A stretch of 64,000 nucleotides of DNA. Origin: Lepiota brunneoincarnata. Its lineage: Eukaryota; Basidiomycota; Agaricomycetes; Agaricales; Agaricaceae. The notes under the pieces were generated by a model. It worked only from the letters and a program-made list of their open reading frames with translations, had not been told where the DNA came from and did no database searches. The number at the start of each line of letters is the position of its first letter. Position 1 is the first letter of the stretch. Where the stretch lies: positions 62,001 through 126,000 of the forward strand of contig JAEBUN010000042.1 of NCBI GenBank assembly GCA_023014365.1, read 5' to 3'. Shown in pieces: positions 884 through 59,879 of this stretch. A program made the position numbers and the translations under genes.

Positions 884-3705
884 TTAGGAGTCAGTTCTCC
901 GTAAATCCCTACACCTCGCAGACGAAGGCTCTAAGAGCTTCAGGTCTCCACCCCTAGGGGTATTAGGAGTCAATTCTCCATAAATCGCTACACCCCGCCC
1001 AGAAGGTGGGGGGCGAATAACTGTTGGCTCCTCGAGGCTGAAGCCTATGAGGGGGGAATAACCCAAAGGCCCTCCCCAGTTATCCCACCCCTTGGGGCCA
1101 GGATAGGAACGCAAACGTGGAAGGGTTGCATTCCAGAAAGCCCAGAAGGGTATCAAGGTCGTGGGTAAGCTGCCACATTGCATATACTCTGGACAGGAGG
1201 TGAGAATGTGAGTGCGGGTTTCAAGCCACAACCCACAAGGACAGGAGTGATCCTCCTGGGGGTGGAATCTAGTGTGGTACTCCCCTATCGGGGCGTGACC
1301 GAGTATAGTGCAGACTGCCCGCACTGTACCAGCAACAGACATCTGAGGGCCGATTTCCCAGAGCCAAGTACTACCAGAGAGGTACGAGGGTTGGAGAGGT
1401 TTCCTGAAGGAGTCCAAGAGAGGGAGGAAATTCCTACCTTGATACAAGGGCAAGCGAAACATATTCACCCACTTGTCAATGCATTCCCTTGTGACCTCGG
1501 CATGAAGGGAATCGATGGTGGTTGCTGGGCAGATACCCAGTGAGATGCAGAGCTCCTTCACCATCGCAACAGTGTTGGAGTGAAGCTCTGCAACAGAGCC
1601 CAAGGGCACCTGCCAGAAGGTGACGGTCCACTGGGCCTTGGCGGACAACCAGCAATCCAGAGACCAGCACACCTCCAGGGAATGGGCCTGGCCAGCATGC
1701 ACAGAAGGATCAACAGCTCTGCGGGCAGAGCCCGTGGAGCTGGTGTATATAAAGATGTGATTAGTTTTGGCACAATTGAAGACCATGCCTACTCCCAATT
1801 GAATGGAGTGGAGCTCCGCATCAGTGAGCAGAACCCTCCCCGTGGCCTGCCTGGCCTGCCTAACCAAGCGCCCACCTGCAAACATGCAAGCTGCTGAAAT
1901 GGCCTGCAGTCTCCCACATGGTAGCCAGTGGGCACCAGCTGCTATGCAAGCAGACAATGGGTCGGCCTGTGCCCTCCAAATAGAGGTGTGCAGTCCGTCG
2001 AGATGTCGTTGCTTTGAATCCCCCTCCGGATCAACAGCGTAAAGCATAAACTTGATCTGCTCCAAAAAGCGGTCCAAAAGTCTGAGACCTGGCCTGTTCT
2101 CGTCTGCAAACGGGCTGAACGACTCAGTAAGCTGCAGAAGCATATCTTGTACCTCCATGAGAGCACTCTTCACCGTGGGCTGAAGCACCAGGGTGAGAGA
2201 TGTGATAGAATGAGGGTGTACCGGGGCACTCCCCCTGAACTCATGGCCCAGCAAGGGCCAAAGCAGGTGACTTGCCGCAAGTGTGGCAACCCGGAATATT
2301 GTTCGGGAAGCCAGCTTCTTGAGATGCAGCCGGAAGGGCAGAAGGCCTGCAAGGGCCTCTGCCCCCCCAGAGGGGGATGTGCGGAACGCACTGATGATCC
2401 AATTGGTGGCTCGCCGCTGCATGGAGTTAAACATCTTGAGGATCCCCTTGTTACAGAAACCCTCGTGATACCACATTGCGTTGTAGGTCCCATGGAGGGC
2501 ATCCCAGAGGGAATCCATGTCGTGATACGGCACACCATTGTGCTGGCTCGCATCACACGCAGGGAGTTTGTGCTATTTAACCCAAGCCATAAGGTCCTAG
2601 GGGCGCTTGTTTGCAGAAGCAATTTCCTCAATCTTCTCATCAAAGAACTTGTGTTTGATGGCCTTAACAACGCATCGGAACCCGAACCACATGTTCCCCG
2701 AAGGAGCCATCTGGTACACCTGAATGGCTGCAGAGCACTCTTCATTCCACCATGGATTAGAGTGCCCCACTATGAACACCTCCTCGGAGAAGGCGTCCCA
2801 AGCCTGGGAGATGATATGAGCCACAGCCTGAGCCGCAGCCTCCACCTCCACAGGCATGCCTAAGGGCATCCGCATTGCGGCCAGCCCCTTGCATATCTGT
2901 GCTATGAACTTCGACTCCTTGTCACTATCAGGCTTCAGACTCGATGGATCACGCCAGTCATAAAACGAGTGACCAGGAGAACCAGGGTAAGAGGAGCATG
3001 GTCCAAAAGACCGTGCTTCTCCAGATCGATCAGGGGCCTGAGATTCGGATCTCAAGCCATTGGGAGGAAGACAAGATTGATCACTGATGGTGAAAGATTT
3101 GAATCATGTGGGAAGTGAGTCGGGCCCAGAACTACCGGTAATGCCAAGTCAAGTCCCAGATCCATCCCAACCTCCAAGAGAGATTGGGCGATCCCCAGAT
3201 GCGAGACCCGATTAGGATCCCACTGCTCTGAGTGGCAATTGAAGTCACCCACCATGTACATCATGGTGGGCAGGGAGTCCACCAGCCCCCAAAGGGCCAC
3301 AATGGCAGTGTGCCAGTCGTCTGAATAGACGTTTATGAGATTATAGGTGTGCCCCCCTTGCCACATGGACACAACCATAATGTCACAGTGGTCAACCAAA
3401 TCCCTACAGAGGGACGGCCGCAACAGCTTCAGCCTTGAGTGGACATACGCTAACACTCGTGGGGACGAATCACCTGGCTGAGGATTCCAGATACACGTCC
3501 ACTCCAGGTGGAGTAGAGCACCTACAATGCCCTCACCATTCTTGCAAACAGTAGAGGGAGCCTTATGGAGGTTTCGCCAAGGGGGTTCTTGCACAAACAA
3601 AATGTCAAAGTCATTTTTGTATAACTCAAGATAAGAGTCCAGTAAAATGTAATTACGATTTACATTTTGAGAGCATATACGTAACTCATTAAGGAACCTA
3701 AACAT
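884..3705 (-). pseudogene. LINE A ORF2 (endonuclease, deleted RT, RNase H), copy A2
   Basis: ORF2 begins at 3705. The piece 3052-3705 encodes the APE-type endonuclease start (ICSQNVNRNYILLDS, QEPPW, GDFNCHSEQWDP). The next piece, 2597-3055, holds the rest of the endonuclease in a shifted frame. The piece 884-2533 jumps from pre-RT text straight into the region after the RT thumb and then RNase H (IFIYTSSTGSARRAVDPSV) and the terminal CCHC (CPCGLWLETRTHILTSC). The polymerase motifs, including YVDD, are missing, so the product could not reverse transcribe. Confidence 0.85.
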
Positions 3706-5749
3706 TATTCTTAGACTGAGTTAGCGAGACCTTGGAGGCGGTGGGGGGATTGTGTACCTTCTGATAATGTTTCTTAGCCCAACCATCCTCAAAATGCTTG
3801 TGCCAGAACAGACACTTCTTGTCATGGGTAGCGTGGGGACCGCCACAGTTTCTACAACAGGACTGGTGGGGGCACGGAGTGCCCTCAGCAGTGCTGGCGA
3901 CCAGTGGATTTGTGTTGGGGCAGGCCTTACAGCATCCCACTATCGACCGATGATTGTCCTCGCTGTGGGGCTTGGAACAGATTGGGTAGGTAGGGAATCT
4001 CACCCTGCAAACATTAGTCAGGTGCCCCCACCGCTAGCAACGGTGGCAGAGAGATGTCCTGACCCACTGGGAGGCCACACTTATAGGGCAAGTGTGGGGC
4101 CCAACGGCCAACGACCTTCCGATCATTGACTTGGAAGAGGACCTGGTCTGCGAGTCCCAGATCTTGACCCAGATGGTCGCAGTGTCTAATTTGTTGGAGT
4201 TCCTCCAAATTCAGGGAGGGCCCTGGAGGTTTTGGAAGCCACAATGCGACGACTGCTGCATGATGTTTTCTATCCACTGACTGGTAATACAGGACCCATC
4301 AGGGGCGAAGAAGGAAACGTCCAACACTTTCATGAAGGACTTGGAGGAGGGGACCATCGCCATAGGCTTCAAACCTGCTGGGAAGAATTGGGAAGCCCAG
4401 TCCTGGATCACGTTGAGATCCGCAGTGGACACAACCGGGTCAGTTGCCAAAGACAAGCCATCGTATGCTGGGGAAGCAGATGTGACATTGAGGGAGGATT
4501 TCGCATTGAGGAGGGCTCGGTTAGCTCCTGCAACAACCTGAGACAAGTCCTTGACCGGGGGCCTAGGGCCTACAAACAGGATGATGACCTGGTGCCTTGT
4601 GGGGTCAGAGGTAGTGTTGCAAGGCCTCTTGTGGGGCCTCCCAGACGAGGGAGTAGGGGAACCCCTTCCAATGGTGTGGAGGATGTCCACAGGGGAGAGG
4701 TGGGGGAAGGCCCTCGCCATGGTAGCAATAGCCTCCGTGACCTTAGTATCGCCATCCCTAGAGACCAGTGGGGTGGCGGCCACCTGAGCAAAGGAGCACT
4801 TAGCACTCCTAGGCTTGGTGGAGAGATTGACCTTCGGCAGTGGCAGGAAAGCCTTCTGCGCATAGGACATGCCTGCTTGCGACAGGCTAGGCCCCAGAGG
4901 GTTAAACAGTGGCACAGGGGGAGGGGGGGCTTTGCCCTTGCCCTTGCCCTTGGACTTAGAGGGTTTGGCCCCACCTATCTCCACAGCCAAGGTGGCATTG
5001 GAGTCGGGGGCCGTATCCATAGGGGCTGGCACAATGGCCAGCCAGGAGGGTGGGACAGTCGCAGCAGGTTTGACCCAGCTAGGACCTCCAACTACCTCAG
5101 GGACATCTGGGATGCTGCTCCCAAAAGACTGTATCCCGTCGATAATGGACTGATGGAAGGTAGGCTCGGGGCCCCCCTTGCACTTCAATCCGTAGTCTAA
5201 GAACCTGCAATGCCCAGTGTGCTGCAAGAGTCCATTGAAAGCAAGCCAGGCCCTCTCCCATGAGGGGCCCACCATCAATGCCTCGGTGTGCTTGACAAAA
5301 TACTCCATGGCGAGATTGAACGACTCTGCTATTGCCCGAAGGTGGCCTGCTTGACTATCATTGTTGGGTTTGGCAACTAAGTCAACCCTCAGGGGGGAGA
5401 TTGCAGGGGGGACAAAGAGGGGACAACCCCCTTCACTGAAGTTACGCCTCGGTTGCTTGGAAGACGACCGAGAGTCATTAGAGAAGGCAGAGAGATGAAA
5501 TAGGGCAAGCCTGCTGCGGTGTCTCCACTGGGTTGATGGCCATCCCACAAGGTGGGGAAACCGCTGCGTACATGCTTGCCGCTGTACCGTAGCAGCTAGC
5601 AGGCTCTTGAAGAGGACTCCTAGGGGAGCCAGGGGACAGAACATCCAAAGGGTTGGTGGAGGGGGTAGGGGAGGGGCCGTGGCCTGAACCGTGGGATCCA
5701 CCATGATCCACCCCTCCTCACGCTACCTGTTAAGAGGCCAAGGAGGACA
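3698..5749 (-). pseudogene. LINE A ORF1 (Gag-like, zinc knuckles), copy A2
   Basis: ORF1 of LINE A, an RNA-binding nucleocapsid-like protein that would coat LINE RNA. The long readable stretch is 4211-5704 (497 aa), and the zinc-knuckle tail is at 3698-4003 in another frame. The tail shows CPICSKPHSEDNH and CRNCGGPHATHDKKC, CCHC-type knuckles typical of LINE ORF1 proteins. The expected start at 5749 is followed by an early TAA, and at least one frameshift separates the body from the knuckles, so this copy is dead. The stop of ORF1 overlaps the ATG of ORF2 by 8 nt (ATGTTTAG around 3698-3705). Confidence 0.8.
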
Positions 5750-5871
5750 TGTGAGGTTGCAAGTACTTCTAGTCGAATCTAACAACAGGGGTGCGCAGGA
5801 TGAGAGATAGAGCATCAAGGTGGGTGTGGCTGTGCATGTGCTGGTGAAAGTACCAGATCAAGAAGTGATGG

Positions 5872-6882
5872 TTCTGGACAGTCTCTGCTGGGGTCAGTGG
5901 ATCCCTGGCTGGTCAAAACGGGTTAGGAGTCCCCCTGGGCACGTCCTGGGTGGGTTTGCAGTGGGACAACTGCGCTCTTCATCAAGCTCTTGCGAAACCT
6001 GTAGCAAGTATGCTTTCCCCCAAATATCCCCTCGTGAGTAGGGAGTCTCCTGCTTGAAAATAAGGGCATGCCCACAAGGGACTGAGAGGATAGGGGATGG
6101 TAAGAGGGGGTATCAAGGTGAGAACAAGCTGACCGTGAGGATAGGCCACCCCCCTCCTGCATTCCAAGCAAGTAAAGCTCAGCCAGGTGCAGGACGTTAG
6201 TAGGGATCACCCAAACTCCGGGGCAGCTCTCATGCTGTGACTTCCATCCCAGTAGTGGCCCCTGCAAAACAATAAGCCTGGACAGTTATATGGGGATCCA
6301 TGCTTATCGCAGATCTGGGCAACCAGATCTCGATTACAAACTGGCTGCTGGGTAACGGGAAGGTGGTCTGGGGGTCACGCCCTGGGTAGCCACTGGGCTG
6401 TAGCAGTTCATTCAGAGAATGGCGAACCGGCTTGAGAGGTCAAGATCTGCCATTGATTGATCCCGGGTAAGATCCAGGTTTATTGGTTTGAGTTGTTACT
6501 ACGTTAGTAGTTCTAGTGTGAGTCTGTGGGGTGAGTGGTGGAGTTTAGCCCGCCTTGTACACCCTTTAGGAAGGCTTCGCACTGACCTGCTACCCCGGGG
6601 ATTACCTAGTTGGGAGGGCAATGGGTTTGGGGTGTTCTGCAATTTTGCGCCGCCTCATGTAAGTCCAGCCTGCTGGCTTTAGTGCTGCACCAATTAGGGA
6701 GGCTGTTAATGTGCTGACCCATGCCCCTGGGCGCACCACCTATAGAGGAGGCCCCCGCCTGTGTCTATAGTGAGTAAAGCTCAGTCTGGCATGGGAGTAA
6801 TAGGTGCCATAGCACTCATCTCACGCCAAGTGGACCATGTTGGGGTTACGCAGAGTTTGCCTGCAAGGAACTCTTTGGACAG
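5872..6882 (+). mobile_element. Module E, 5'-truncated and CpG-decayed copy
   Basis: This 1,011 bp segment aligns end to end with the last 1,012 bp of the full module E (9047-10058). It ends at the module's usual 3' boundary (TTGGACAG here, TTGGACGG elsewhere) and is fused to a LINE A 3' fragment at 6883. Compared with the young copies, many CpG sites have become TpG or CpA, for example CTCGCGAAA to CTTGCGAAA and GTAGCGAG to GTAGCAAG, so this is an old copy. It has no credible coding sequence. Its left edge abuts the 5' end of LINE A copy A2. Confidence 0.8.
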
Positions 6883-7161
6883 GTGCTGGGCCATGAGTTC
6901 AGGGGAAGCGCCTTGGCACACCCTCGTTCTATCGCATCTCTCACCCTGGCACTTCGGCCCAAGTTTGTCAGGGTAGCGAGCTCTTCACCCACATGCACTT
7001 CTTTACAGAGTGTAGCCTTTTGAGTCAGCAGGACTCTCTTCTCTACCTTCATTGGTAGTTATACCATGTATTAGTTGCCTTGTACGTAGCTAGTGCACGT
7101 GGACTGTGTTCGAGCACCGCGTTATAAATTGTTGATTTCAAAAATAAAAATAAAAATAAAA
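6883..7161 (+). mobile_element. LINE A 3' fragment fused behind module E
   Basis: This continues from module E without a gap. It begins in the LINE A post-RT coding region (LGHEFRGSA, then a broken frame), then jumps at about 6960-6980 to the LINE A 3' UTR, and ends with TATAAATTGTTGATTTC and an impure A tail with T every six bases (7138-7161). Together with 5872-6882 it forms an E-LINE A chimera inserted in copia C1. I cannot find a matching left TSD. Confidence 0.75.
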
Positions 7162-7568: not shown

Positions 7569-8643
7569 TTTTTTTTTTTTTTTGAAATCAACAATTTACG
7601 AGGTATAGGGCCCTCCCATGAGGGAGGACCCTATTGCTATGCGCTCTTGCGAGGCAAGCACCGGATGCACCGGACCCCGGAATCAACTTAGACTCTAACC
7701 TGGCTTAGTCAGTCAGGAGAACCGACAGAGGATTTAGTGCACTCGAGCCAGGTTGCGGGAGACTGTCCCGGCCCGCTACGGCTTACGCTTCGCCAGGGAG
7801 TTAGTATAGAGCCCCGGTTACTGGGCTTCCCATTCCCGGGCAGGTGGTTCGCTGATGCCAACTGGTGCGGATCCCCACCTGTCCTAGGTCTCTGCCTCGC
7901 CCACAGCCAACCACGTTGCACTCCCAGAGGTCCATGGACCAGTGGCGTGGAGTTGTTTCAGTACCCTAAGCCTGCGCCGCCCACTTCAGACGGAACACCC
8001 ACAGGGGATCTAACCCCAGGGCATGCCCAGATGCAGACTCACCCAGAGCTCCAAGGTCTGGGTGGCGGACCTCCCCAATTGGCAGCCCCTATGGGAGAAG
8101 CCGTGGGTAACCCCAAAGCCCCAGTGCCCCACCCTTTGCCACCCGACCGGATACCTACTACCATGGACTAACGACCGGTACTTACTTGGCTTAAGCTGGC
8201 AGCACCCGGACCAAGCATTCCCATGTGGGGGGTTACCTGGCCCCTTATTGGGACGTTCAATCTGTTTTTGTTAGAATTCCCCCACTTACCACACCCTGTG
8301 CTTTCGCTCCCTTATCAGGCACAGCCGATCTAGTCCGATCGAGATTGATCCAGATCTGCCACTTTGGGCTCCAATGATCTCTTCCCCAGATTTACCCCAG
8401 ATCGGCAATTGCCAGTCGCCAAATCGAGAACTGAGATCAAGGAGACCATTGAATTTCCTTGGAGATAGTTTACCCACCCGAAGAACCGAGCACACAGTAG
8501 TATCCGATGACAACCGCGCGACCTCTCTCCACTTCACAGGTATGGAGGATGAGAGGGAATCGAACCCCCAACCTTTCCGGCAGCCGTGCACAGCCACCTC
8601 TCCCCATCTTTAGTGATCGAAACCACTGGGCTAGAGGGGCCCT
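7569..8643 (-). mobile_element. tRNA-derived SINE with a LINE A-type 3' tail (SINE Y)
   Basis: This is a complete 1,075 bp insertion into copia C1, flanked by a 15 bp TSD (TGATTGTGAAAGGGA at 7554-7568 and 8644-8658). Reading on the minus strand it begins with a tRNA-like head, continues through a roughly 0.9 kb non-coding body, forms a strong hairpin at about 7604-7634 (12 bp stem, 4 nt loop) and ends AAATTGTTGATTTC plus poly-A (7569-7584). That tail is identical to the last bases of LINE A. Head, tail and TSD together support a SINE mobilised by LINE A. The body is unusually long for a SINE. Confidence 0.85.
8548..8642 (-). promoter_or_regulatory. RNA polymerase III internal promoter (A and B boxes) of SINE Y
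   Basis: On the minus strand the A box TAGCCCAGTGG lies at 8633-8623 and a perfect B box GGTTCGATTCC at 8566-8556, about 57 nt apart. This spacing fits a tRNA with a long variable arm or an intron. The A box starts about 10 nt from the element's 5' end, as in a real tRNA gene. The acceptor stem does not pair well, so this is a tRNA-derived promoter head and not a functional tRNA. Confidence 0.8.
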
Positions 8644-8826
8644 TGATTGTGAAAGGGAGATGGTGCGGTTGGGGATGTCCTAAGTGATCTGGATGTTGAG
8701 AAGAAAGGAGGTGAGACCAAGATCATGGAGTTTGAAGTGTTTTGACAGCTTAGCTACTGTTCTGTCCATGGCTTGATTGTTCTTGGATACAAGTGTGATG
8801 TCATTAATGAAGATGAGAACAATAGC

Positions 8827-10058
8827 GCGCTCCTTTCCCTCTTACCACCACCATCCCCCTCTTATATTATTTTCTACTCCTAATCTACAGGCAGCCGTCC
8901 CGTTCTTAGTGGGTTGTCTACACTATTCCACCTCTCTTCACCCTTCTGGAGCGTCCCGGGGCTGTCTGGGGTTGTTGGGGAGTTGGGTGCGCCCTTGGCA
9001 AAGGTGCTTAATGGCTGGGTATGCTGGCCGCCTGATGAGCTGGCGATTCTGGGCGGTCTCTGCTGGGGTCAGTGGATCCCTGGCTGGCCGAAATGGGTTA
9101 GGAGTCCCCCTGGGCACGTCCTGGGTGGGTTCGCAGTGGGACAACCGCGCTCCTCGCCAAGCTCTCGCGAAACCTGTAGCGAGTGCGCTTCCCCCAAATA
9201 CCCCCTCGCGAGTAGGGAGTCTCCCGCTTGAAAACGAGGGCACGCCCGCAAGGGACCGAGAGGATAGGGGACGGTAAGAGGGGGCATAGCCGTGAAAACA
9301 AGCCGACCGAGAGGACAGGCCACCCCCCTCCTGCATTCCAAGCGAGTAAAGCTCAGCCGGGTGCAGGACGTTAGTAGGGATCACCCAAACTCCGGGGCAG
9401 CTCTCACGCTGCGACTTCCATCCCGGTAGCGGCCCCTGCAAGACAGTAAGCCCGGACAGTTATACGGGGATCCGTGCTTATCGTGGATCTGGGCAACCGG
9501 ATCTCGATCACGAACCGGCTGCTGGGTAACGGGAAGGTGGTCCGGGGGTCGCGCCCTGGGTAGCCACTGGGCCGTAGCGGTTCGTTCAGAGAATGGCGAA
9601 CCGGCTCGAGAGATCAAGATCTGCTGTCGATCGATCCCGGGTAAGATCCGGGTTTATCGGTTTGAGTTGTTACCACGTCAGTGGTTCTAGCGTGAGCCTG
9701 TGAGTTGAGTGGCGGAGTTTAGCCCGCCTTGTACACCCTTTAGGAAGGCCTTCTGCGCCGACCCGCTACCCCGGGGATTACCTAGTTGGGAGGGCAACGG
9801 GTTTGGGGTGTTCCGCGATTTTGCGCCGCCTCATGTAAGTCCGGCCCGTTGGCTTTAGTGCCGCACCAATTAGGGAGGCTGTTAGTGTGCCGACCCATGC
9901 CCCCGGGCGCACCACCTATAGGGGAGGCCCCCGCCTGTGTCTATGGCGAGTAAAGCTCAGTCTGGCATGGGAGTAACGGGCGCCGTAGCACTCATCTTAC
10001 GCCAAGCGGGCCATGTTGGGATCACGCGGAGTTTGCCCGCAAGGGGCTCCTTGGACGG
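8827..10058 (+). mobile_element. Module E, full length (1,232 bp), copy 1
   Basis: A non-coding sequence that starts GCGCTCCTTTCCCTC and ends GGGGCTCCTTGGACGG. Two other copies in the window (31179-32410 and 42024-43255) have the same length and nearly the same sequence. It has no terminal inverted repeats and no poly-A of its own, and its three or four short frames lack domains and run on both strands. A phrase GAGTAAAGCTCAG occurs twice (about 9344 and 9948). It is joined at its 3' end to LINE B at a point beginning TCGTGCGTGGTTCC. I read it as a copy of an independent RNA captured by LINE reverse transcriptase. Confidence 0.85.
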
Positions 10059-11493
10059 GTCGTGCGTGGTTCCGATAGCCACATACGGCTTTCGTCTGTG
10101 GTATTACCGGGGCGCCAGGTGTAAGGGCGCTTTGGACCACCTCCGCCGGATGCAGCGTCGGGCTGCACTCTGGATCACCGGCGCCTTTAGGACGTCACCC
10201 GATGGGGGGGTTGGGGCCATTGCGGGCCTGATCCCCATTCACCTTCATCTCCGGAAGCTTCGCGACCGTGCCGAGTTGCGGTACGCCACGCTTGCTCCGG
10301 GCCACCCCGTTCGTGCCCTCCTTGGCTGGGGCTACAGCGGTGATCTCCGGCCTCATGTCCGGTCCATAGCCAGGCTCCCTCCCCGCGAGCTGATCAAGGT
10401 GAAGGGGCCTGTTGTCGACGCTAACCAGCGTCTTGCTGCCCTCGCTGGGCCCTTCGACGCGGTGGCGCCGGAGGCCTGGCCGGGGCGCCGTCTCCTGGAT
10501 GTGCACCCTGACCGGGTCCGCTTCCACTCTTACGACCGGGGAGCGGAGGACGCCCTCACGGCCCATGTCGCAGCTCTCGACCGGGTTCTGGCCCGGTCGC
10601 AGGCTGACCCGGGGGTTCTGGTGGCAGCGACGGACGCGAGTCTGCCGCCCCGCCGGGTCCACCAGGCGGTTTCGGCCGCCCAGGTTTTCCAGGGGCTGGA
10701 CTGCATCCACGCGGTCCGGCTTCCGGGGGGGAAGGTTACGGCTCCCGAGGCCGAGCTTTTCGCCATCCGGCTGGCGGTGTCCAAGGCAGTTTCTGTCGAA
10801 GGCGCCGCTAGTCTCGTCTTGTTCACCGACTCGATGGCCTCGGCCAGGCGGGCGGTGGACCCGTCGGTGCACTCCGCCCAGGGTCATTCCTTGGCTGTCT
10901 GCCGCCTTCTCGCCGCGTGGTTCGCCGGGGGTCCGGCCCGCTCGGTCCACTTCTGGGAGGTCCCTTCGCGCGCGAAGTGGCCTTTCCACACTCAGGTGCA
11001 CGACTTCGCCCGGTCGTTGCCTCCCGTTGGGGTAGGGGCTCGTCCCCAGGCCTCGCTTGACTACCTCCGGAAGGAGGAAGTACGGTCGTGTCAGGACCGC
11101 TGGATCGATTTGTTCCAGGATCCTGACCATCGCGGGCATGGTTTCCTCCAGCTCGCCAGGGACGACGACCGTCCCCTGCGGCCCACGTATCTCCACGGTG
11201 GTGCCTGGATCCCGCACGCTCACTCGGTGTCAGTAATGGCCCGGATGACGCGTGCTATTCTTAATCACGCGCCGATAGGGGGCTATCGGAGGCGTTTTTT
11301 CCCGCAGGAAGGTTATTCCTGTCGCTGCGGGTTTCGGGAGGAAACCCGTGAGCACGTGTTCCGGAGTTGCCCTAGGCACTCCATGGCGGGGGTCCCGGCT
11401 ACGGTCGAGGCTCTCATTGCTTTCCTCGAGGCGTCCCCGACCGCGTTCGCGTTCGCTGAGAGGGCCGGGCCCCCCCCGGGGGGTATCGGCTAG
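10059..11493 (+). pseudogene. LINE B ORF2 3' part (RNase H and CCHC), copy B1
   Basis: An open 478-codon stretch encodes the end of LINE B ORF2: the post-RT region (VVPIATYGFRLWYYRG, MQRRAALWITGAF), RNase H (VAATDASLPP, EAELFAIRLAVSKAV, LFTDSMASARRAVDPS) and the terminal knuckle CRCGFREETREHVFRSC. It stops at the TAGTAG double stop around 11491-11496. No endonuclease or polymerase is present because the chimera joins module E here. The upstream ATG at 9937 lies in module E and is unlikely to be a real start. Confidence 0.85.
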
Positions 11494-11532
11494 TAGCTCT
11501 GCCTGGCGCCCGGTTGGGTCCGGGCCGGGGCG

Positions 11533-11613
11533 TTGGTTATTCCCCCGCTGCCTTCGGGTGGCGTGTAGGGATTTGCGTGGGAATTGACCCCTAGCCCCCG
11601 ATAAGGGGGGGGA
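11533..11613 (+). promoter_or_regulatory. Structured 3' UTR module shared by LINE A and LINE B
   Basis: Just after the ORF2 stop lies GGTTATTCCCCCGCTG, then GTAGGGATTTGCG, GAATTGACCCCTAG and a C5/G5 hairpin with a GATAA-type loop, then GGACCTCG. The same succession, with a TTCG or TTAG loop, occurs twice in the LINE A 3' UTR (for example 46672-46832). Conservation between two otherwise divergent LINEs suggests an RNA structure used by the element, perhaps for RT recognition; that function is inference. Confidence 0.6.
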
Positions 11614-11875
11614 CCTCGCTCCGGTTTGGTTCCCGTGCCGCGCGCTGGGCGGCAGCCGTCTTCCCGCCTCCGTTCATTCGGGGCGGCTTCATCCTGGGCA
11701 TGGGGAAATGCATGCCCGCATCCGCGGTCACGCGTTGTATGTACAGATACCCCGTAGTGTACGGCTCGGTCGTTTGTACTGTAGTACGTTGCTGCGCACG
11801 GCCTCCCTACGCGGCCCGTGTAATAAATTGGAGATTTAAAAAAAAAAAAAAAAAAAAAAAAAGATGAGAACAATA

Positions 11876-30618: not shown

Positions 30619-30802
30619 TACTCCTAGGCTGAGTTAGCGAGACCTTGGGGGCGGCAGGGGAACTGTGTACCTCCTGATAATGTTTCTTGGCCTAACCGTC
30701 TTCAAAACGCTTGTGCCAGAAAGGGCATTTCTTGTTGTGGGCGGCATGGGGGCCGCCACAGTTCCTACAACGGGGCTGATGAGGGCACTCCGTGCCCTCA
30801 GC

Positions 30803-30835
<33 letters not shown>

Positions 30836-31178
30836 CCAATTTATTACACGGGCCGCGTAGGGAGGCCGTGCGCAGCAACGTACTACAGTACAAACGACCG
30901 AGCCGTACACTACGGGGTATCTGTACATACAACGCGTGACCGCGGATGCGGGCATGCATTTCCCCATGCCCAGGATGAAGCCGCCCCGAATGAACGGAGG
31001 CGGGAAGACGGCTGCCGCCCAGCGCGCGGCACGGGAACCAAACCGGAGCGAGGTCCCCCCCCTTATCGGGGGCTAGGGGTCAATTCCCACGCAAATCCCT
31101 ACACGCCACCCGAAGGCAGCGGGGGAATAACCAACGCCCCGGCCCGGACCCAACCGGGCGCCAGGCAGAGCTACTAGC

Positions 31179-32410
31179 CCGTCCAAGGAGCCCCTTGCGG
31201 GCAAACTCCGCGTGATCCCAACATGGCCCGCTTGGCGTAAGATGAGTGCTACGGCGCCCGTTACTCCCATGCCAGACTGAGCTTTACTCGCCATAGACAC
31301 AGGCGGGGGCCTCCCCTATAGGTGGTGCGCCCGGGGGCATGGGTCGGCACACTAACAGCCTCCCTAATTGGTGCGGCACTAAAGCCAACGGGCCAGACTT
31401 ACATGAGGCGGCGCAAAATCGCGGAACACCCCAAACCCGTTGCCCTCCCAACTAGGTAATCCCCGGGGTAGCGGGTCGGCGCAGAAGGCCTTCCTAAAGG
31501 GTGTACAAGGCGGGCTAAACTCCGCCACTCAACTCACAGGCTCACGCTAGAACCACTGACGTGGTAACAACTCAAACCGATAAACCCGGATCTTACCCGG
31601 GATCGATCGACAGCAGATCTTGATCTCTCGAGCCGGTCCGCCATTCTCTGAACGAACTGCTACGGCCCAGTGGCCACCCAGGGCGCGACCCCCGGACCAC
31701 CTTCCCGTTACCCAGCAGCCGGTTCGTGATCGAGATCCGGTTGCCCAGATCCACGATAAGCACGGATCCCCGTATAACTGTCCGGGCTTACTGTCTTGCA
31801 GGGGCCGCTACCGGGATGGAAGTCGCAGCGTGAGAGCTGCCCCGGAGTTTGGGTGATCCCTACTAACGTCCTGCACCCGGCTGAGCTTTACTCGCTTGGA
31901 ATGCAGGAGGGGGGTGGCCTGTCCTCTCGGTCGGCTTGTTTTCACGGCTATGCCCCCTCTTACCGTCCCCTATCCTCTCGGTCCCTTGCGGGCGTGCCCT
32001 CGTTTTCAAGCGGGAGACTCCCTACTCGCGAGGGGGTATTTGGGGGAAGCGCACTCGCTACAGGTTTCGCGAGAGCTTGGCGAGGAGCGCGGTTGTCCCA
32101 CTGCGAACCCACCCAGGACGTGCCCAGGGGGACTCCTAACCCATTTCGGCCAGCCAGGGATCCACTGACCCCAGCAGAGACGGCCCAGAATCGCCAGCTC
32201 ATCAGGCGGCCAGCATACCCAGCCATTAAGCACCTTTGCCAAGGGCGCACCCAACTCCCCAACAACCCCAGACAGCCCCGGGACGCTCCAGAAGGGTGAA
32301 GAGAGGTGGAATAGTGTAGACAACCCACTAAGAACGGGACGGCTGCCTGTAGATTAGGAGTAGAAAATAATATAAGAGGGGGATGGTGGTGGTAAGAGGG
32401 AAAGGAGCGC
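31179..32410 (-). mobile_element. Module E, full length (1,232 bp), copy inside LINE B
   Basis: The same length and end points as at 8827-10058, in the same orientation as the LINE B around it. The 5' junction is GAAGTACG|GCGCTCC and the 3' junction GGACGG|GCTAGTAG. It shares variants with the copy at 42024-43255 (GTGGCCACT, AGCAGTTCG, CTGGGCCGTC) that the copy at 8827 lacks, so at least two E lineages exist. Confidence 0.88.
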
Positions 32411-35397
32411 CGTACTTCCTCCTTCCAGAGGTAGTCAAGCGAGGCCCGGGGACGAGCCCCTACCCCAACGGGAGGCAACGACCGGGCGAAGTCGTGCACC
32501 TGAGTGTGGAAAGGCCACTTCGCGCGCGAAGGGACCTCCCAGAAGTGGACCGAGCGGGCCGGACCCCCGGCGAACCACGCGGCGAGAAGGCGGCAGACAG
32601 CCAAGGAATGACCCTGGGCGGAGTGCACCGACGGGTCCACCGCCCGCCTGGCCGAGGCCATCGAGTCGGTGAACAAGACGAGACTAGCGGCGCCTTCGAC
32701 AGAAACTGCCTTGGACACCGCCAGCCGGATGGCGAAAAGCTCGGCCTCGGGAGCCGTAACCTTCCCCCCCGGAAGCCGGACCGCGTGGATGCAGTCCAGC
32801 CCCTGGAAAACCTGGGCGGCCGAAACCGCCTGGTGGACCCGGCGGGGCGGCAGACTCGCGTCCGTCGCTGCCACCAGAACCCCCGGGTCAGCCTGCGACC
32901 GGGCCAGAACCCGGTCGAGAGCTGCGACATGGGCCGTGAGGGCGTCCTCCGCTCCCCGGTCGTAAGAGTGGAAGCGGACCCGGTCAGGGTACACATCCAG
33001 GAGACGGCGCCCCGGCCAGGCCTCCGGCGCCACCGCATCGAAGGGCCCAGCGAGGGCAGCAAGACGCTGGTTAGCGTCGACAACAGGCCCCTTCACCTTG
33101 ATCAGCTCGCGGGGAGGGAGCCTGGCTATGGACCGGACATGAGGCCGGAGATCACCGCTGTAGCCCCAGCCAAGGAGGGCACGAACGGGGTGGCCCGGAG
33201 CAAGCGTGGCGTACCGCAACTCGGCACGGTCGCGAAGCTTCCGGAGATGAAGGTGAATGGGGATCAGGCCCGCAATGGCCCCAACCCCCCCATCGGGTGA
33301 CGTCCTAAAGGCGCCGGTGATCCAGAGTGCAGCCCGACGCTGCATCCGGCGGAGGTGGTCCAAAGCGCCCTTACACCTGGCGCCCCGGTAATACCACAGA
33401 CGAAAGCCGTATGTGGCTATCGGAACCACGCACGACCGATACAGAAGGCGCTTCTGGTCTGGCAGAAGCCCCCGGACGGAATTACCAAGCATCCCCATGG
33501 CCTTGACCGTGGAAATAGCCTTAGTAGAGTAGAAGCGAACATGCTCCTTAAACGTAAGGGCACGATCAAAATAGAAACCCAAGTACCTCCAATAGGTCTT
33601 GGGCCGAAGAGGGGTAGCGCCAGTGAACGGGGGAAACCCCAAGTCCACCGGGGGATTCTCACCGGAACGATCCCGTGAGAAATGGAAGAGCTCGGACTTA
33701 TCGTGCTCCACGACCAGCGCGAACCGAGTGAAGGTGTCATGGACAACCTCGTAAGATCTGCGGAGCAGGACGCAATTAGCGTCCAAGTCCCAGGCCTGCG
33801 CCACGATGGTGCCATCGTCGACGTAAGACAGGAGCGAGAGGCCCGGCTGAGGGAGCCGCCGCTCGATGATGTACATGGCTGGGGCCAAGTAGAGGCCGGA
33901 CAGGACGGGTGAGAGGGCAGACCCCTGGCCCACCCCCACCTCCGCCCGGAACGGTTCAGACAGGAAGGAGTTCCAGGCATAGCTGGTAAACCTCCCCGTG
34001 AGATAAGAAGCAAAGAACCGGCCCACACAAGGGGAAAACCCCTGCCGAGCCAGAACCGCGAGAAGCATCCCATGGTTCAGGGATGGGAAGAACTGTGCGA
34101 TATCGAAGGCGAGAACACTCGTCTTCAACCCGCGAGCCCACCCGGCACGCACAAGGTGCACGAGGTAGGCACCAGCATCTTCGGTGGATCGCTGGATCAC
34201 ACCGCCGAACTGGTTCGGATGGAACACGCCAAACTTGACAGCCTCAAACTGCAAGCGGCGCGAGATCATTTTCTCGATAAGCTTACCGAGAGTGTTAAGA
34301 AGGACGATCGGTCTGAACGCCTTCGGAGTAGCATAGGAGGGCTTGCCAGGCTTCGGTATGATAACCGACACGCTCTCCTTAAAGTGACGAGGCCAATGTC
34401 CGCACTCCATGCAGGCATCGGCGATCCGACAGACCAGACGGGCAACCGTCGGGCCCACCAGAACAGACTTGAGGTGTGTCCACGTGACGTGGTCCGGACC
34501 AGGCGATGACAAAGAGGAGCACGCGCGCAGAGCCTCGTGCATCTCCAAGTCGGAGAAGACCGGCCACTCCCGCGGTGGGAGCGGATCGATCTGATCAAGA
34601 ACCCCGACATCGACCGGGCGGTCATTGGCGGCGTTGTAAGAACCGTGGAGCCCCTCCCAGAGTTCCTCGAGAGTGTTGCAGGGGCGATCGCGATAGCGGA
34701 TCGCCTCGCAGGGAGGCAACTTGCGCGCCCTGACCCAATCCATCAGGTCCCAGGGGCGCTTGTTGGTAGAAGCAATCTCCTCGATGCGCTCATCGAAGAA
34801 CTTGCGCTTGGCGGCCTTCCAGGTCCGCTTAAACGTGCGAGCGTCCTCCCGGTCCCGAGACCGAGAGTACACCGCATAAGTGCGTGAGCACTCGTCGTCC
34901 CACCACGGCTTAGACCGCGAGACGACGCAGATCTCCCTGGAGTGGGCAAGCCACGCCTTGGAGAAGACCGCAGAGATAGCCAGGGCTACCTCGTCGATCC
35001 TGTCAGATGAGCCTAGGTCCGGAAAATCCAGCCCCATAAGCCCCGTCGAGACCTCAGCTAGGAACTCGGCCTCCTCGTCCGAGTCCCGCTTCAGTGAACG
35101 CCTGGGCACAGCCTCCTCGAAGGCTTCCAGAGGGATAACGATCCGAAGGGGGCAGTGGTCAGATTGACCCCGCAGATCGGGACACCGCGTGGGAAGCGGC
35201 AGATGGCCCGCAGTCGCCCTCGCAAACACGAGGTCGATCACGGTAGAAGCGAGTCCCTCCTCAAAGGGGAAGTGCGTGGGGCCCGGGTTCTCAGGGAGCG
35301 AGAGGTCCAGGCCCAACGAGTCCGCCGTTTCCAGCAGGGAGGCGGCAGCAGCAGGATTGTGGGGGGCCCACGGGTCCCACTGCGGCGATCGGCAGTT
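32411..35397 (-). pseudogene. LINE B ORF2: endonuclease end, RT and most of RNase H, copy B3
   Basis: About 995 codons are open. The endonuclease C-terminal part (SPQWDPWAP, LDLSLPENPGPTHF, DHCPLRIVIP) is followed by the linker (NKRPWDLMDWVRARKLP), RT (PIVLLNTLGKLIEKM, AFDIAQFFPSLNHGM, GVGQGSALSPVLSG, LSYVDDGTIV with an intact YVDD) and RNase H (VAATDASLPP, LFTDSMASARRAVDPS). It is 5'-truncated within the endonuclease and runs into module E after LDYLWKEEV. The frame also reads through neighbouring LINE A and E sequence, which is coincidental. Confidence 0.9.
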
Positions 35398-35411
35398 GCC
35401 CTCAGCAGTAC

Positions 35412-38151: not shown

Positions 38152-39882
38152 CAGCTCCTTTATCAGCAACCATTACCATATTTGGTCAGGTTGCACCTCC
38201 TCTCGAGTTGGGAGGCCCATTCATGGCCTTCCTCTCGTCCGTTTTTCTTCTAATCCGGCATGGTAGTAGCGGCCCTGTGTGCCCTCCCATGTACCAAATT
38301 TCGAGTCGATCCGTCGAGGGGGTCACCGACAATTCGCCCTTTTTGTAGGAAACACTGTGGGGAAGGATTGGAGGCTCTGCAGGGTTCCAAATCGCTGGTC
38401 TGAGGTCTAGGTTGAAGGCAAGCACTATCAGGGTGTTCACACACCATTTCCAGTGGTTGTGCCAGGCTATGGCACCTCCACTGACACTTTGAGCATGCCC
38501 AGGCATGTCTCACCTCCTCCAGCCTCCCCCATCACTCCGGGGGGGCTACATCTTGTCCCACAGCGCCGGACTGGGTAACAAAGCGTGCACAGGAGCTCCG
38601 GACACATCCTCAGCAAGTTTCAGCTTGTTCCGAGCTGATCTCGCTGAGTTATCACACTTTTCATGTGTTTCTCCTCTGACCTCTCTGTGATCCTTAGATT
38701 GCAGGGCTCGTTCAGAGCTCGTTCCTTGGCCGTTCTGGCTGAAACTTCACAGGACTGTAGGGGTCCCTAGGCCCCTTCAGATCCCTCGCTTATACGCGGC
38801 TGCGCCCACGGGGGCAGCCTCGACGTTCGCTTCTTTGGGGGCATCCCCCCCAAGAAGCCTGTCTCCTGCGCATTTGCAGTCGTTCTGCCAGCCCCCTGGC
38901 TCGGCTGCTTCTCCCCTGCTTAGCGAAGGCTCGGGAGCATGCTCAGACCGTTCTCAGCGAGTTTCAGCCCATTCTGGGCTGATCTCGTTGATTTATCACA
39001 CCTTTTGTGGGGTGTTTTCTCTCTGACAGCCCTGCTTCTCCGGATTGCAGGGCTCGTTTAGAACTCGTTTGGCGGGCGCTTCGCCCCATATTTTACGGGA
39101 TGGTAGGGGTCCTAGTACCCCTCCTGTCCCCTTAATTGCATGTGGCTGCGCTCACGCGTTCGGCCGCAATGCCACTTTTTCGGACATGGCTCCAAATGCT
39201 CTTTAGAGTAATTGGACTGTGTGCCACATTTTGCTTGGGTGCTTGGCACCTAACCCTCTTGATTCTGTATGGGCTACTATTACAGTAGCCAGGGCTTCCT
39301 TTGATGCCCAGGTTGCCCCTCGTCACTGACATTGCAGTTGACCTTTTCCCTTCCCTTTGGGAAGTTTACCTTGCCTCCTTGGTTTTTGTCCAACTACCTG
39401 GGCATTTACGGTGAATTAACACCAACGTGCTTCGCGCATGGGGACCAGGGACCCTTGGCTATCTGGCAGGTTTCCCAACCTGCCCACCTGCATTAGGCTC
39501 CCAGGGCCTGCAGATTTTATTCCTACAGGAACTCCCTGTGGTTTGCGCTAGTGCCTTGTAGGTACTGGTATTTGTCCGGAGGGGAGTATATACTATATGC
39601 TCCCTCCTCCAGCCACTGTCCTCTGGGAAGGTGTGGTAGCAGAGTGGGCTACTTGGTGGGACCCTGTGCGTCTGGTGCCCTTCGGGTGCAGGCATGTGCT
39701 AACCACTGGGTAGATCCCCACTTGTTTTTCTGCTTCTTTTGGGCAGTTCTCTCCTGGGCTTGGGGTGACGCAAGCTCGTGTTGGCAGGCATGCCAGTATG
39801 TAGGGCGGACTTTGTAGCTACTTGCCCCCTGTAGTAGGTAGTTGCACGCGGCCTCCCATCGCGGCCCGCGTTATAAATTGTA

Positions 39883-39920
<38 letters not shown>
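38152..39920 (+). mobile_element. Element X: non-autonomous retroelement with a LINE B-type 3' tail
   Basis: A 1.77 kb plus-strand insertion in LINE A copy A5, with a 15 bp TSD GAGGTCGCAGGATAA (38137-38151 and 39921-39935) and a roughly 33 nt poly-A (39888-39920). No frame exceeds about 106 codons and none has a recognisable domain. The last ~57 bp (GTAGTAGG...CACGCGGCC...GGCCCGCGTTATAAATTG, GATTT) are homologous to the LINE B terminus, so LINE B machinery probably moved it. The 5' end has no convincing tRNA boxes. I do not recognise the body. Confidence 0.82.
38600..39165 (+). repeat. Internal tandem duplication in element X
   Basis: Two diverged units about 344 bp apart (roughly 38600-38815 and 38944-39165) share GAGCTGATCTCG or GGGCTGATCTCG, TTATCACAC, GATTGCAGGGCTCGTT and a GGCTGCGC-CACG end. 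Module E and the LINEs have no equivalent. Confidence 0.7.
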
Positions 39921-42023: not shown

Positions 42024-43255
42024 GCGCTCCTTTCCCTCTTACCACCACCATCCCCCTCTTATATTATTTTCTACTCCTAATCTACAGGCAGCCGTCCCGT
42101 TCTTAGTGGGTTGTCTACACTATTCCACCTCTCTTCACCCTTCTGGAGCGTCCCGGGGCTGTCTGGGGTTGTTGGGGAGTTGGGTGCGCCCTTGGCAAAG
42201 GTGCTTAATGGCTGGGTATGCTGGCCGCCTGATGAGCTGGCGATTCTGGGCCGTCTCTGCTGGGGTCAGTGGATCCCTGGCTGGCCGAAATGGGTTAGGA
42301 GTCCCCCTGGGCACGTCCTGGGTGGGTTCGCAGTGGGACAACCGCGCTCCTCGCCAAGCTCTCGCGAAACCTGTAGCGAGTGCGCTTCCCCCAAATACCC
42401 CCTCGCGAGTAGGGAGTCTCCCGCTTGAAAACGAGGGCACGCCCGCAAGGGACCGAGAGGATAGGGGACGGTAAGAGGGGGCATAGCCGTGAAAACAAGC
42501 CGACCGAGAGGACAGGCCACCCCCCTCCTGCATTCCAAGCGAGTAAAGCTCAGCCGGGTGCAGGACGTTAGTAGGGATCACCCAAACTCCGGGGCAGCTC
42601 TCACGCTGCGACTTCCATCCCGGTAGCGGCCCCTGCAAGACAGTAAGCCCGGACAGTTATACGGGGATCCGTGCTTATCGTGGATCTGGGCAACCGGATC
42701 TCGATCACGAACCGGCTGCTGGGTAACGGGAAGGTGGTCCGGGGGTCGCGCCCTGGGTGGCCACTGGGCCGTAGCAGTTCGTTCAGAGAATGGCGGACCG
42801 GCTCGAGAGATCAAGATCTGCTGTCGCTCGATCCCGGGTAAGATCCGGGTTTATCGGTTTGAGTTGTTACCACGTCAGTGGTTCTAGCGTGAGCCTGTGA
42901 GTTGAGTGGCGGAGTTTAGCCCGCCTTGTACACCCTTTAGGAAGGCCTTCTGCGCCGACCCGCTACCCCGGGGATTACCTAGTTGGGAGGGCAATGGGTT
43001 TGGGGTGTTCCGCGATTTTGCGCCGCCTCATGTAAGTCCGGCCCGTTGGCTTTAGTGCCGCACCAATTAGGGAGGCTGTTAGTGTGCCGACCCATGCCCC
43101 CGGGCGCACCACCTATAGGGGAGGCCCCCGCCTGTGTCTATGGCGAGTAAAGCTCAGTCTGGCATGGGAGTAACGGGCGCCGTAGCACTCATCTTACGCC
43201 AAGCGGGCCATGTTGGGATCACGCGGAGTTTGCCCGCAAGGGGCTCCTTGGACGG
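42024..43255 (+). mobile_element. Module E, full length (1,232 bp), copy in B4
   Basis: The same start (GCGCTCC) and end (GGACGG) as the other two full copies and almost identical to them. Its variants group it with the copy at 31179-32410. It has no coding capacity that I can support. Confidence 0.88.
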
Positions 43256-44495
43256 GAAGCTTCGCGACCGTGCCGAGTTGCGGTACGCCACGCTTGCTCC
43301 GGGCCACCCCGTTCGTGCCCTCCTTGGCTGGGGCTACAGCGGTGATCTCCGGCCTCATGTCCGGTCCATAGCCAGGCTCCCTCCCCGCGAGCTGATCAAG
43401 GTGAAGGGGCCTGTTGTCGACGCTAACCAGCGTCTTGCTGCCCTCGCTGGGCCCTTCGACGCGGTGGCGCCGGAGGCCTGGCCGGGGCGCCGTCTCCTGG
43501 ATGTGCACCCTGACCGGGTCCGCTTCCACTCTTACGACCGGGGAGCGGAGGACGCCCTCACGGCCCATGTCGCAGCTCTCGACCGGGTTCTGGCCCGGTC
43601 GCAGGCTGACCCGGGGGTTCTGGTGGCAGCGACGGACGCGAGTCTGCCGCCCCGCCGGGTCCACCAGGCGGTTTCGGCCGCCCAGGTTTTCCAGGGGCTG
43701 GACTGCATCCACGCGGTCCGGCTTCCGGGGGGGAAGGTTACGGCTCCCGAGGCCGAGCTTTTCGCCATCCGGCTGGCGGTGTCCAAGGCAGTTTCTGTCG
43801 AAGGCGCCGCTAGTCTCGTCTTGTTCACCGACTCGATGGCCTCGGCCAGGCGGGCGGTGGACCCGTCGGTGCACTCCGCCCAGGGTCATTCCTTGGCTGT
43901 CTGCCGCCTTCTCGCCGCGTGGTTCGCCGGGGGTCCGGCCCACTCGGTCCACTTCTGGGAGGTCCCTTCGCGCGCGAAGTGGCCTTTCCACACTCAGGTG
44001 CACGACTTCGCCCGGTCGTTGCCTCCCGTTGGGGTAGGGGCTCGTCCCCGGGCCTCGCTTGACTACCTCCGGAAGGAGGAAGTACGGTCGTGTCAGGACC
44101 GCTGGATCGATTTGTTCCAGGATCCTGACCATCGCGGGCATGGTTTCCTCCAGCTTGCCAGGGACGACGACCGTCCCCTGCGGCCCACGTATCTCCACGG
44201 TGGTGCCTGGATCCCGCACGCTCACTCGGTGTCAGTAATGGCCCGGATGACGCGTGCTATTCTTAATCACGCGCCGATAGGGGGCTATCGGAGGCGTTTT
44301 TTCCCGCAGGAAGGTTATTCCTGTCGCTGCGGGTTTCGGGAGGAAACCCGTGAGCACGTGTTCCGGAGTTGCCCTAGGCACTCCATGGCGGGGGTCCCGG
44401 CTACGGTCGAGGCTCTCATTGCTTTCCTCGAGGCGTCCCCGACCGCGTTCGCGTTCGCTGAGAGGGCCGGGCCCCCCCCGGGGGGTATCGGCTAG
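43256..44495 (+). pseudogene. LINE B ORF2 3' part (RNase H and CCHC), copy B4
   Basis: Open from the chimera junction: LRDRAELRYATLAPGHP, RNase H (VAATDASLPP, EAELFAIRLA, LFTDSMASARRAVD) and the CRCGFREETREHVFRSC knuckle, ending at TAGTAG. The ATG at 43134 lies in module E and is not a natural LINE B start. Confidence 0.85.
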
Positions 44496-58510: not shown

Positions 58511-59062
58511 CTAGTGCACGCGGACTGCATTTGAGCACCGTGTTATAAATTGTTGATTTAAAAAAAAAAAAAAAAAAAAGTCCAACAAGGGGAGGAAATT
58601 CCTCCTCCTATAAAGGGGCAAGCGAAACATATTCACCCACTCGTCAATACACCCCCTCGTGGCCTCAGCCCGGAGAGAGTCAATAGTAGTCGCCGGGCAG
58701 ACGCCCAGCGATACACGAAGCTCCTTCGCCATCGCGACAGCATCAGAGTGAAGCTCTGCAACAGAGCCCGCAGGCACCTGCCAGAAGGTAACAGTCCGCT
58801 GGGCCTTGGAAGACAACCAGCGGTCCAGGGACCGACACACCTCCAGGGAATGAACCTGGCCGGCATGCACAGAGGGATCCACAGCTCTGCAGGCAGAGCC
58901 CACAGAACTGGTGTAGATAAAGATGTGGTTGGTTTCCACACGGTCCAAGACCATGCTTACTCCCAACCAAATGGAGTGGAGCTCTGCATCAGCGAGCAGA
59001 ACCCTCCCTGCGGCCTGCCTGGCCTGCTTGACCAGACACCCACCTGCAAACACGCAAGCTGC
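58511..59062 (-). pseudogene. LINE A RNase H, copy A8
   Basis: The RNase H core of the E-LINE A chimera: LVKQARQAAGRVLLADAELH, IFIYTSSVGSACRAVDPSV and TVTFWQVPAGSV, running to GRNFLPLLD-type text (NFLPLLD). The frame then enters the poly-T and UTR of copy A9. The true coding region is 58593-59062. Confidence 0.82.
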
Positions 59063-59879
59063 TCGTTCAAGGAGCCCCTTGCGGGCAAACTCCGCATGAT
59101 CCCAACATGGCCCGCTTGGTGTAAGATGAGTGCTACGGCGCCCGTTACTCCCATGCCAGACTGAGCTTTACTCGCCATAGACACAGGCAGGGGCCTCCCC
59201 TATAGGTGGTGCGCCCGGGGGCATGGGTCGGCACACTAACAGCCTCCCTAATTGGTGCGGCACTAAAGCCAACGGGCCAGACTTACATGAGGCGGCACAA
59301 AATCGTGGAACACCCCACACCCGTTGCCCTCTCAACTAGGTAATCCCCGGGATAGCGGGTCGGCACAGAAGGCCTTCCTAAAGGGTGTACAAAGTGGGCT
59401 AAACTCCACCACTCAACTCACAGGCTCACGCTAGAACCACTGACGTGGTAACAACTCAAACCGATAAACCCGGATCTTACCCGGGATTGATCGACAGCAA
59501 ATCTTGATCTCTCAAGCCAGTTCGCCATTCTCTGAACGAACCACTATGGCCCAGTGGCTACCCAGGGTGCGACCTCCAGACCACCTTCCCGTTACCCAGC
59601 AGCTGGTTTGTGATCAAGATCCGGTTGCCCAGATCCACGATAAGCACGGATCCCCGTATAACTGTCCAGGCTTACTGTCTTGCAGGGGCCGCTACCAGGA
59701 TGGAAGTCACAGCGTGAGAGCTGCCCCGGAGTTTGGGTGATCCCTACTAACATCCTGCACCTGGCTGAGCTTTACTCGCTTGGAATGCAGGAGGGGGGTG
59801 GCCTGTCCTCTTGGTTGGCTTGTTTTCACAGCTATGCCCCCTCTTACCATCCCCTATCCTCTCAGTCCCTTGCAGACGT
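59063..59879 (-). mobile_element. Module E, 3' 817 bp, cut by copia C2
   Basis: The last two thirds of module E on the minus strand, ending with its usual 3' boundary (TTGAACGA here) at the junction with LINE A. It is CpG-decayed relative to the young copies. It stops at 59879 where the copia C2 LTR starts; GACGT at 59875-59879 is the probable left 5 bp TSD of C2. Confidence 0.85.

Follow-up and report, generated by a model that had tools for sequence, protein, structure and literature searches.

A 1,232-nt RNA-like unit fused to LINE-type elements in Lepiota brunneoincarnata, a probable product of reverse transcriptase template switching

The genome of Lepiota brunneoincarnata carries many copies of a unit, here termed E, that is very probably the DNA copy of one discrete non-coding RNA, reached by LINE reverse transcriptases via template switching. 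The reading comes from sequence comparison. It is drawn from the constant ends of E, from its fusion in the same orientation at many partner positions and from the presence of one target-site duplication (TSD) that encloses the two together; the poly-A with which the LINE part finishes, a C at -3 of the junction in both LINE families and a GG match in half of the sites lead to the same reading. The initial annotation had proposed a discrete RNA with fixed ends to which the reverse transcriptases of more than one LINE family jump repeatedly, in the manner of MINE elements, and the genome-wide junctions support that proposal.

The window is the whole stretch of 64,000 nucleotides that was analysed (contig JAEBUN010000042.1, positions 62,001 to 126,000). 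The genome searched consists of 55.6 Mb in 95 contigs, and L- and C- labels denote individual E loci or rows and contig hits across it.

Ends and copies of the E unit

All five E copies previously listed for the window are present (Table 1). The matches at 31179-32410 (minus strand) and 42024-43255 stand at 99.6% and 99.5%, those at 59063-59879 (minus strand) and 5872-6882 at 95.6% and 89.8%. A common 3' base had been claimed for them; the shared end is real, but it lies one base further right, at E position 1233. At 20 of 44 junction positions the chimera has G where the majority base of the partner is not G (L034 is counted among these 20 although its own last base reads T), and because this final G is kept even there, the end is placed at 1233. 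At the other side E begins at position 2 (CGCTCCTTTCCC), after 0-4 extra bases next to the TSD in TSD-flanked copies. The fixed length of 1,232 nt is kept, with the unit shifted by one base to 8828-10059. Of the single TSD described round E plus LINE B at 8825-11862, the one insertion stands; the duplication itself is 13-15 bp long (positions in Table 1), and poly-A may account for its first two A's.

Table 1. Positions in the window of E copies, of the elements joined to them and of target-site duplications
Feature	Position	Strand	Length
E unit, full copy, RNA-like, ends GGACGGG	8828..10059	+	1,232 nt
LINE B, 5'-truncated, fused to E, poly-A at end	10060..11860	+	
5' TSD AAGATGAGAACAATA of the E-LINE B copy	8810..8824	+	
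3' TSD AAGATGAGAACAATA of the E-LINE B copy	11861..11875	+	
E unit, full copy, middle of tripartite LINE B-E-LINE B insertion	31178..32409	-	
5'-truncated LINE B part preceding E in tripartite insertion, reaching LINE B3 coordinate 1027	32410..35396	-	
LINE B 3' part following E, beginning at coordinate 1432, poly-A	30808..31177	-	
TSD of tripartite insertion (GTACTGCTGAGGGCA on - strand)	35397..35411	-	
TSD of tripartite insertion, 3' copy	30793..30807	-	
E unit, full copy, with junction ~195 bp deeper inside LINE B than in the 8828 copy	42024..43256	+	
E positions 221-1233, joined to LINE A 3' region; second copy elsewhere (L025)	5872..6883	+	
E from ~position 416 to 1233, fused to LINE A at reference coordinate 4208 (L015)	59062..59879	-	
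SINE-like element sharing LINE A 3' tail (TAAATTGTTGATTTCAAAA)	7571..8640	-	~1 kb

A search of the flanks of the 42024 copy gave no convincing TSD. L025, on another contig, repeats the 5872 copy with the same flank and the same junction, and the 5' break of the 5872 copy at E 221 may be the edge of another element. Broken E copies border, at different E positions, on one and the same sequence, CCAGATCAAGAAG.GATG (window 5840-5871; also L024, L025 and L042), and L042 has a similar sequence on either side in inverted arrangement; this is probably the terminus of another mobile element that inserted into E, rather than a place where reverse transcription stopped. Within E, stretches of 15 bases (1120-1134 and 516-530) and 11 bases (418-428 and 1209-1219) are repeated, one short repeat being close to the 3' end.

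How constant are the ends outside the window? The first 300 bases of E, used as query, gave 40 scored matches of 79 candidates, and in 39 of the 40 E starts at positions 1-4. The last 300 bases gave 40 scored matches of 75 candidates. A search with the whole of E listed 41 matches (40 of 107 candidates were scored), and 36 of these 41 reach E 1229-1232. The initial annotation had named many different 3' ends across the genome as an outcome that would tell against it; what was found is this shared end. Among the five short matches, two meet an oppositely oriented LINE and three stop without explanation.

The 20-base 3' end of E, with at most 3 mismatches allowed, has 68 hits, as against 1 for a reversed control pattern. 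Accepted as E were 62 of these; six 3-mismatch hits (C20, C26, C52, C85, C36:542030 and C47:1227270) were set aside as probable chance, and the 5872 copy is outside the 62, as it has more mismatches in its 3' 20-base stretch. All 62 accepted ends are fused to another element and none is unfused; these ends were picked by the E 3' end itself and so cannot tell how frequent other 3' ends of E are.

In the fetched loci, 29 of 38 rows reach the 3' end. L022, L023 and L039 run into the poly-T of an oppositely oriented LINE, L037 into sequence also found at window 13639 in the region before the gypsy-type open reading frame there, and L040 into LINE A, which E 123-136 flanks on either side in the manner of a TSD; L043 is cut by the contig end. 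Five short copies without explanation constitute a point against template switching. They are the second piece of L040, which stops at E 1009, the second copy in L012 and L042, which also end short of the E 3' end, and C6:84762 and C6:35713, which break off at E 1084 and 1086 with unrecognised sequence next to them.

The pairs L022/L023, L027/L034, L030/L033, L031/L035 and, with a small gap, L032/L038 are taken as segmental duplicates because they share flanks. On contig C47, E 1-476 (L037) and E 469-1232 (L036) lie ~8 kb apart and probably represent a single E-element C copy that an LTR-type insertion has split.

Partners and jump sites

What lies beyond the constant end of E? The 61 junction rows (the 62nd E end, L080, is a repeat of L076) show LINE A as partner in 35, among them L055 with the LINE A 3' region, LINE B in 22, an element termed C in three and a SINE-like element in one. 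The joins are direct and in the same orientation, and the LINE end bears poly-A. A reverse transcriptase domain is present in LINE B and in LINE A, the latter with an endonuclease-family match as well. Element C is ~850 bp long with a LINE-type 3' tail (a copy is at window about 39183-39916); E is joined to it in L020, L036 and L017, twice at about the same position, which is perhaps the 5' end of C itself. The partner in L045 is a relative of the SINE-like element of Table 1, in which ARAGORN detects no tRNA, though its head looks tRNA-like by eye.

There are 44 distinct junction positions with readable context over the four partner types. L075, L020 and L036 are without usable upstream context, L027 was merged with its duplicate, and several rows at one position were counted once. 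Each context is the majority of up to 12 related copies, with one copy for L062 and L072 and two for L055 and L060.

Could one ancestral E-LINE fusion have spread and later been rearranged internally? Recurrent positions are consistent with this, as is the divergent class formed by nine old rows. Seven LINE positions are reused, each by rows beyond a mere duplicate pair; among them, LINE B 1432 occurs in four rows and LINE A 4759 in five, the latter reduced to three once its two duplicate pairs are counted singly. A simulation of 52 uniform jumps, a rough count of independent events, over 2,000-5,000 positions gave a mean of 0.26-0.66 reused positions and a maximum of 5 in 5,000 runs. However, the LINE parts of copies sharing LINE A 4759 are only ~84% alike, no closer than to other LINE copies, and the 44 positions with their four partner types are each joined to the same E base and come with separate TSDs. 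The initial annotation had named such a fusion as a result that would undo its reading, and these findings speak against it. A single fusion as the origin of the whole set is thus extremely improbable, while an ancestral fusion may hold for copies that share a position. Reuse may otherwise mark a hot spot, or common descent for close pairs such as L013 and L049. A truncated LINE B flanked by a TSD of its own (GACGCCCGCCGACTC) is present inside a gypsy-type open reading frame at window 19084 and starts within ~3 bases of the E-LINE B junction position of L050.

A TSD of 13-16 bp surrounds E, partner and poly-A in 13 of 38 rows, or 12 after removal of the L031/L035 duplicate; with the tripartite insertion described below, there are 13 distinct insertions in which one TSD encloses E and partner. 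The script that proposed TSDs required an A-rich tail, and its proposal for L014 was rejected as no poly-A precedes it. The 25 of 38 rows that have no accepted TSD, partly from nested insertions and from the cut of the fetched stretches, are a second point against template switching.

The junctions follow a sequence rule. With E taken to end at 1233, C is found at -3 in 38 of the 44 positions (background 0.30, P 1e-14): in 21 of 24 for LINE A, in 14 of 17 for LINE B and in 17 of 20 where the last base is not G. GG at -2,-1, which matches the terminal GGG of E, is present in 22 of 44 (background 0.10), and CGG occurs at 19 junctions against 1.1 expected. The commonest contexts are CGG, CGA, CCT and CCA. 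Ordinary LINE 5' truncations served as control and have C at -3 in 2 of 8 (Fisher P 0.001), a small sample that includes the head of the tripartite insertion. These stem from 25 TSD-flanked insertions, of which 12 start in E and 8 of the other 13 were usable; of the five that were dropped, two had no reference match, and the rest were a SINE-like head, a duplicate and a 30-base piece. Hairpins at the jump sites (38 positions) are in weak excess, on the 3' side only (P 0.013), and were left out of account. The rule might reflect a pause or a cut in the LINE RNA marked by C. A third point against template switching is that C at -3 is without an established mechanism and is not the motif seen in Magnaporthe.

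A fixed E 3' end with variable acceptor positions is also what a spliced leader would give; in that case E would be a leader exon spliced in cis or in trans onto LINE RNA, ahead of its reverse transcription. Yet AG, the splice acceptor, ends only one of the 44 LINE contexts (L047), the rule being instead C at -3, and the LINE B-E-LINE B insertion places E inside a LINE. Splicing seems a very improbable origin of the fusions.

The initial annotation had listed the E copy of that tripartite insertion at 31179-32410 but overlooked that LINE B flanks it on both sides, all inside one 15-bp TSD; base 32410 is common to the upstream LINE B piece and E position 1. The insertion is without ~400 LINE B bases, between coordinates 1027 and 1432, and this stretch was not found next to it. 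Its LINE A flanks match contiguous LINE A copies elsewhere.

How would template switching give rise to such structures? A LINE reverse transcriptase would copy its own RNA during target-primed insertion, jump from inside the LINE RNA to the 3' end of the E RNA, and complete the cDNA on the latter. The terminal GGG of E may help to capture the cDNA end. In the tripartite case, represented by one insertion, the jump to E might have been followed by a second jump, from the E 5' end back to LINE B RNA.

Identity and source of the E RNA

E contains no Rfam family at the gathering score. At a relaxed threshold the window gives three weak matches, far below the cut-off and none of them a spliceosomal snRNA; U6 is about ten times shorter than E. 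Telomerase RNA was considered and rejected, as E has no sense-strand stretch of at least 7 bases matching a CCCTAA, CCCTAAA or CCCCTAA repeat. The longest stop-free stretch within E is 173 codons and antisense, and Pfam has no match for 104 residues of one 166-residue open stretch. Motifs common to E and the rest of the window amount to chance-length matches only.

More can be read from how the copies differ. Differences among 30 E copies are mostly C>T and G>A and amount to 17-19% per site at CpGs versus 0.3-3.6% elsewhere, on both strands. This CpG-specific decay suggests CpG methylation of mobile elements in Lepiota brunneoincarnata. The majority sequence has 91 CpGs, and all 91 are kept in L011 and L012. 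Transversions from the majority are at 0-0.38% in young and middle-aged copies and at 0.25-1.2% in the nine oldest. A tree of 21 copies is near-star in form: 13 arise directly from one unresolved fork, a further four, near-identical and from one contig, form a clade that springs from the same fork, and the four oldest diverge below it; support is good for 3 of 18 inner branches. The fused LINE parts are 0-3.7% different from their nearest other copy, and the E distance is the smaller one in 17 of 22 rows, equal in one (L011) and higher in four (L012-L014 and L027), L011 to L014 being the youngest copies, a rough comparison, as the two distances were measured differently and the LINE distance holds the decay of two copies. 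The near-star tree, the CpG decay and the few E transversions argue for one nearly unchanging RNA copied over a long time; the E copies seem to be retrocopies of one almost invariant, CpG-rich source.

Does E then act as a parasite, as the initial annotation had it? A selfish non-autonomous element would have its chimeras transcribed and the RNA cut at E 1233, with new copies made from old ones. The copies are numerous, all 62 read ends are fused, and the clade of four from one contig would be expected of such an element. But most copies radiate from one nearly invariant source, with the 13 of 21 at a single fork and the four oldest below it, and CpG decay makes up most of what sets them apart; the copies lose CpGs, but outside CpGs the source has hardly changed. 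E also usually changes less than its fused LINE part, and cleavage at the E-LINE boundary is needed in addition. In view of this radiation and of the CpG decay, E copies do not seem to beget copies, and the notion of a parasite is not supported. A selfish element is an unlikely reading; the decay pattern fits a conserved RNA better.

Where is the gene for this RNA? In the 55.6 Mb assembly, no unfused E locus was found among the 62 read 3' ends (at most 3 mismatches). A source gene split by introns was also looked for and not found: the 14 listed mid-E matches of at least 97%, from a search in which 40 of 82 candidates were scored, are all in chimeric copies. E may represent a conserved cellular RNA whose gene is missing from the assembly. 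As no gene for the E RNA was found, 'cellular RNA' is here an inference; the gene may reside in an unassembled array, a ribosomal DNA spacer being one suspected place.

An RNA replicon or other extrachromosomal RNA, with no nuclear gene at all, would equally leave no unfused 3' end in the 95 contigs and only chimeric mid-E matches, and its source would be the nearly invariant, CpG-rich sequence described above. A gene hidden in an unassembled array or gap would account for these facts too, however. A viral relative was sought in IMG/VR, where the E 3' 21-mer has no exact match, and the E RNA fold is no more stable than shuffles (z +1.1, 25 shuffles), a result that does not favour template switching to E either. 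An extrachromosomal origin therefore appears quite improbable.

Template switching to the E RNA might be carried one step further. E could be a natural template-switching RNA whose GGG catches cDNA ends of several LINE reverse transcriptases that have stalled three bases beyond a C, and which may hand the enzyme back to LINE RNA; the RNA would be kept going without a nuclear gene in the assembly, and each DNA copy would be the record of a jump, none of them a parent. In this full form the proposal is speculative, and the chance that it holds is low.

Comparison with known chimeric elements

The nearest parallel is with the MINE elements of Magnaporthe, in which WEIRD, a non-coding RNA of 1,113 nt, is fused to 5'-truncated MGL LINEs (PMC2104539). 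E chimeras appear MINE-like in mechanism and anatomy but are not filed as MINE itself, because their junctions do not show the GCC^A/U motif; the likeness is one of mechanism and anatomy. Both systems have a full-length non-coding RNA of the ~1.1 kb class with constant ends on the 5' side, variable LINE junctions of which some are reused, and a 5'-truncated LINE joined directly in the same orientation. In both the TSD encloses the whole chimera (10-20 bp in MINE, 13-16 bp in E chimeras), and both include a fusion to a SINE or SINE-like element and a tripartite insertion and have no unfused copy in the assembly (PMC2104539). The differences are in length (1,232 nt for E), in the jump motif (C-S-N^ with a GG match to the E end in half of the sites, as against GCC^A/U with no microhomology), in the partners, which for E are two LINE families, element C and a SINE-like element, and in the tripartite copy, where E is in the middle (LINE-E-LINE) and WEIRD at the 5' end (PMC2104539). 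Among the literature matches listed, with subscription journals mostly outside their scope, there is no other fungal case.

With E there is one more extensive MINE-like set, built on a non-coding RNA in the size class of WEIRD; at least two LINE families have this one RNA as their apparent jump target. Dozens of junctions yield a sequence rule, C at -3 with a GG match, that is testable in vitro. The LINE-E-LINE insertion points to the possibility of a return after a jump. A nearly invariant source with no gene in the assembly, as is also reported for WEIRD (PMC2104539), makes the identity of such RNAs a question.

In vertebrates, U6 snRNA forms chimeras with L1, L2 and RTE LINEs. As in E chimeras, an RNA is joined by template switching to a 5'-truncated LINE inside one TSD, and internal initiation on U6 is reported as never seen in U6/L1 chimeras (PMC4476161). 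The 5' part there is an snRNA, whereas E is without an Rfam match at the gathering score. LINE-1 insertions carrying non-coding RNAs, Alu or mRNA fragments are also described (PMC13174262). Those mammalian chimeras involve several RNA species, while here one RNA was followed through several LINE-type partners.
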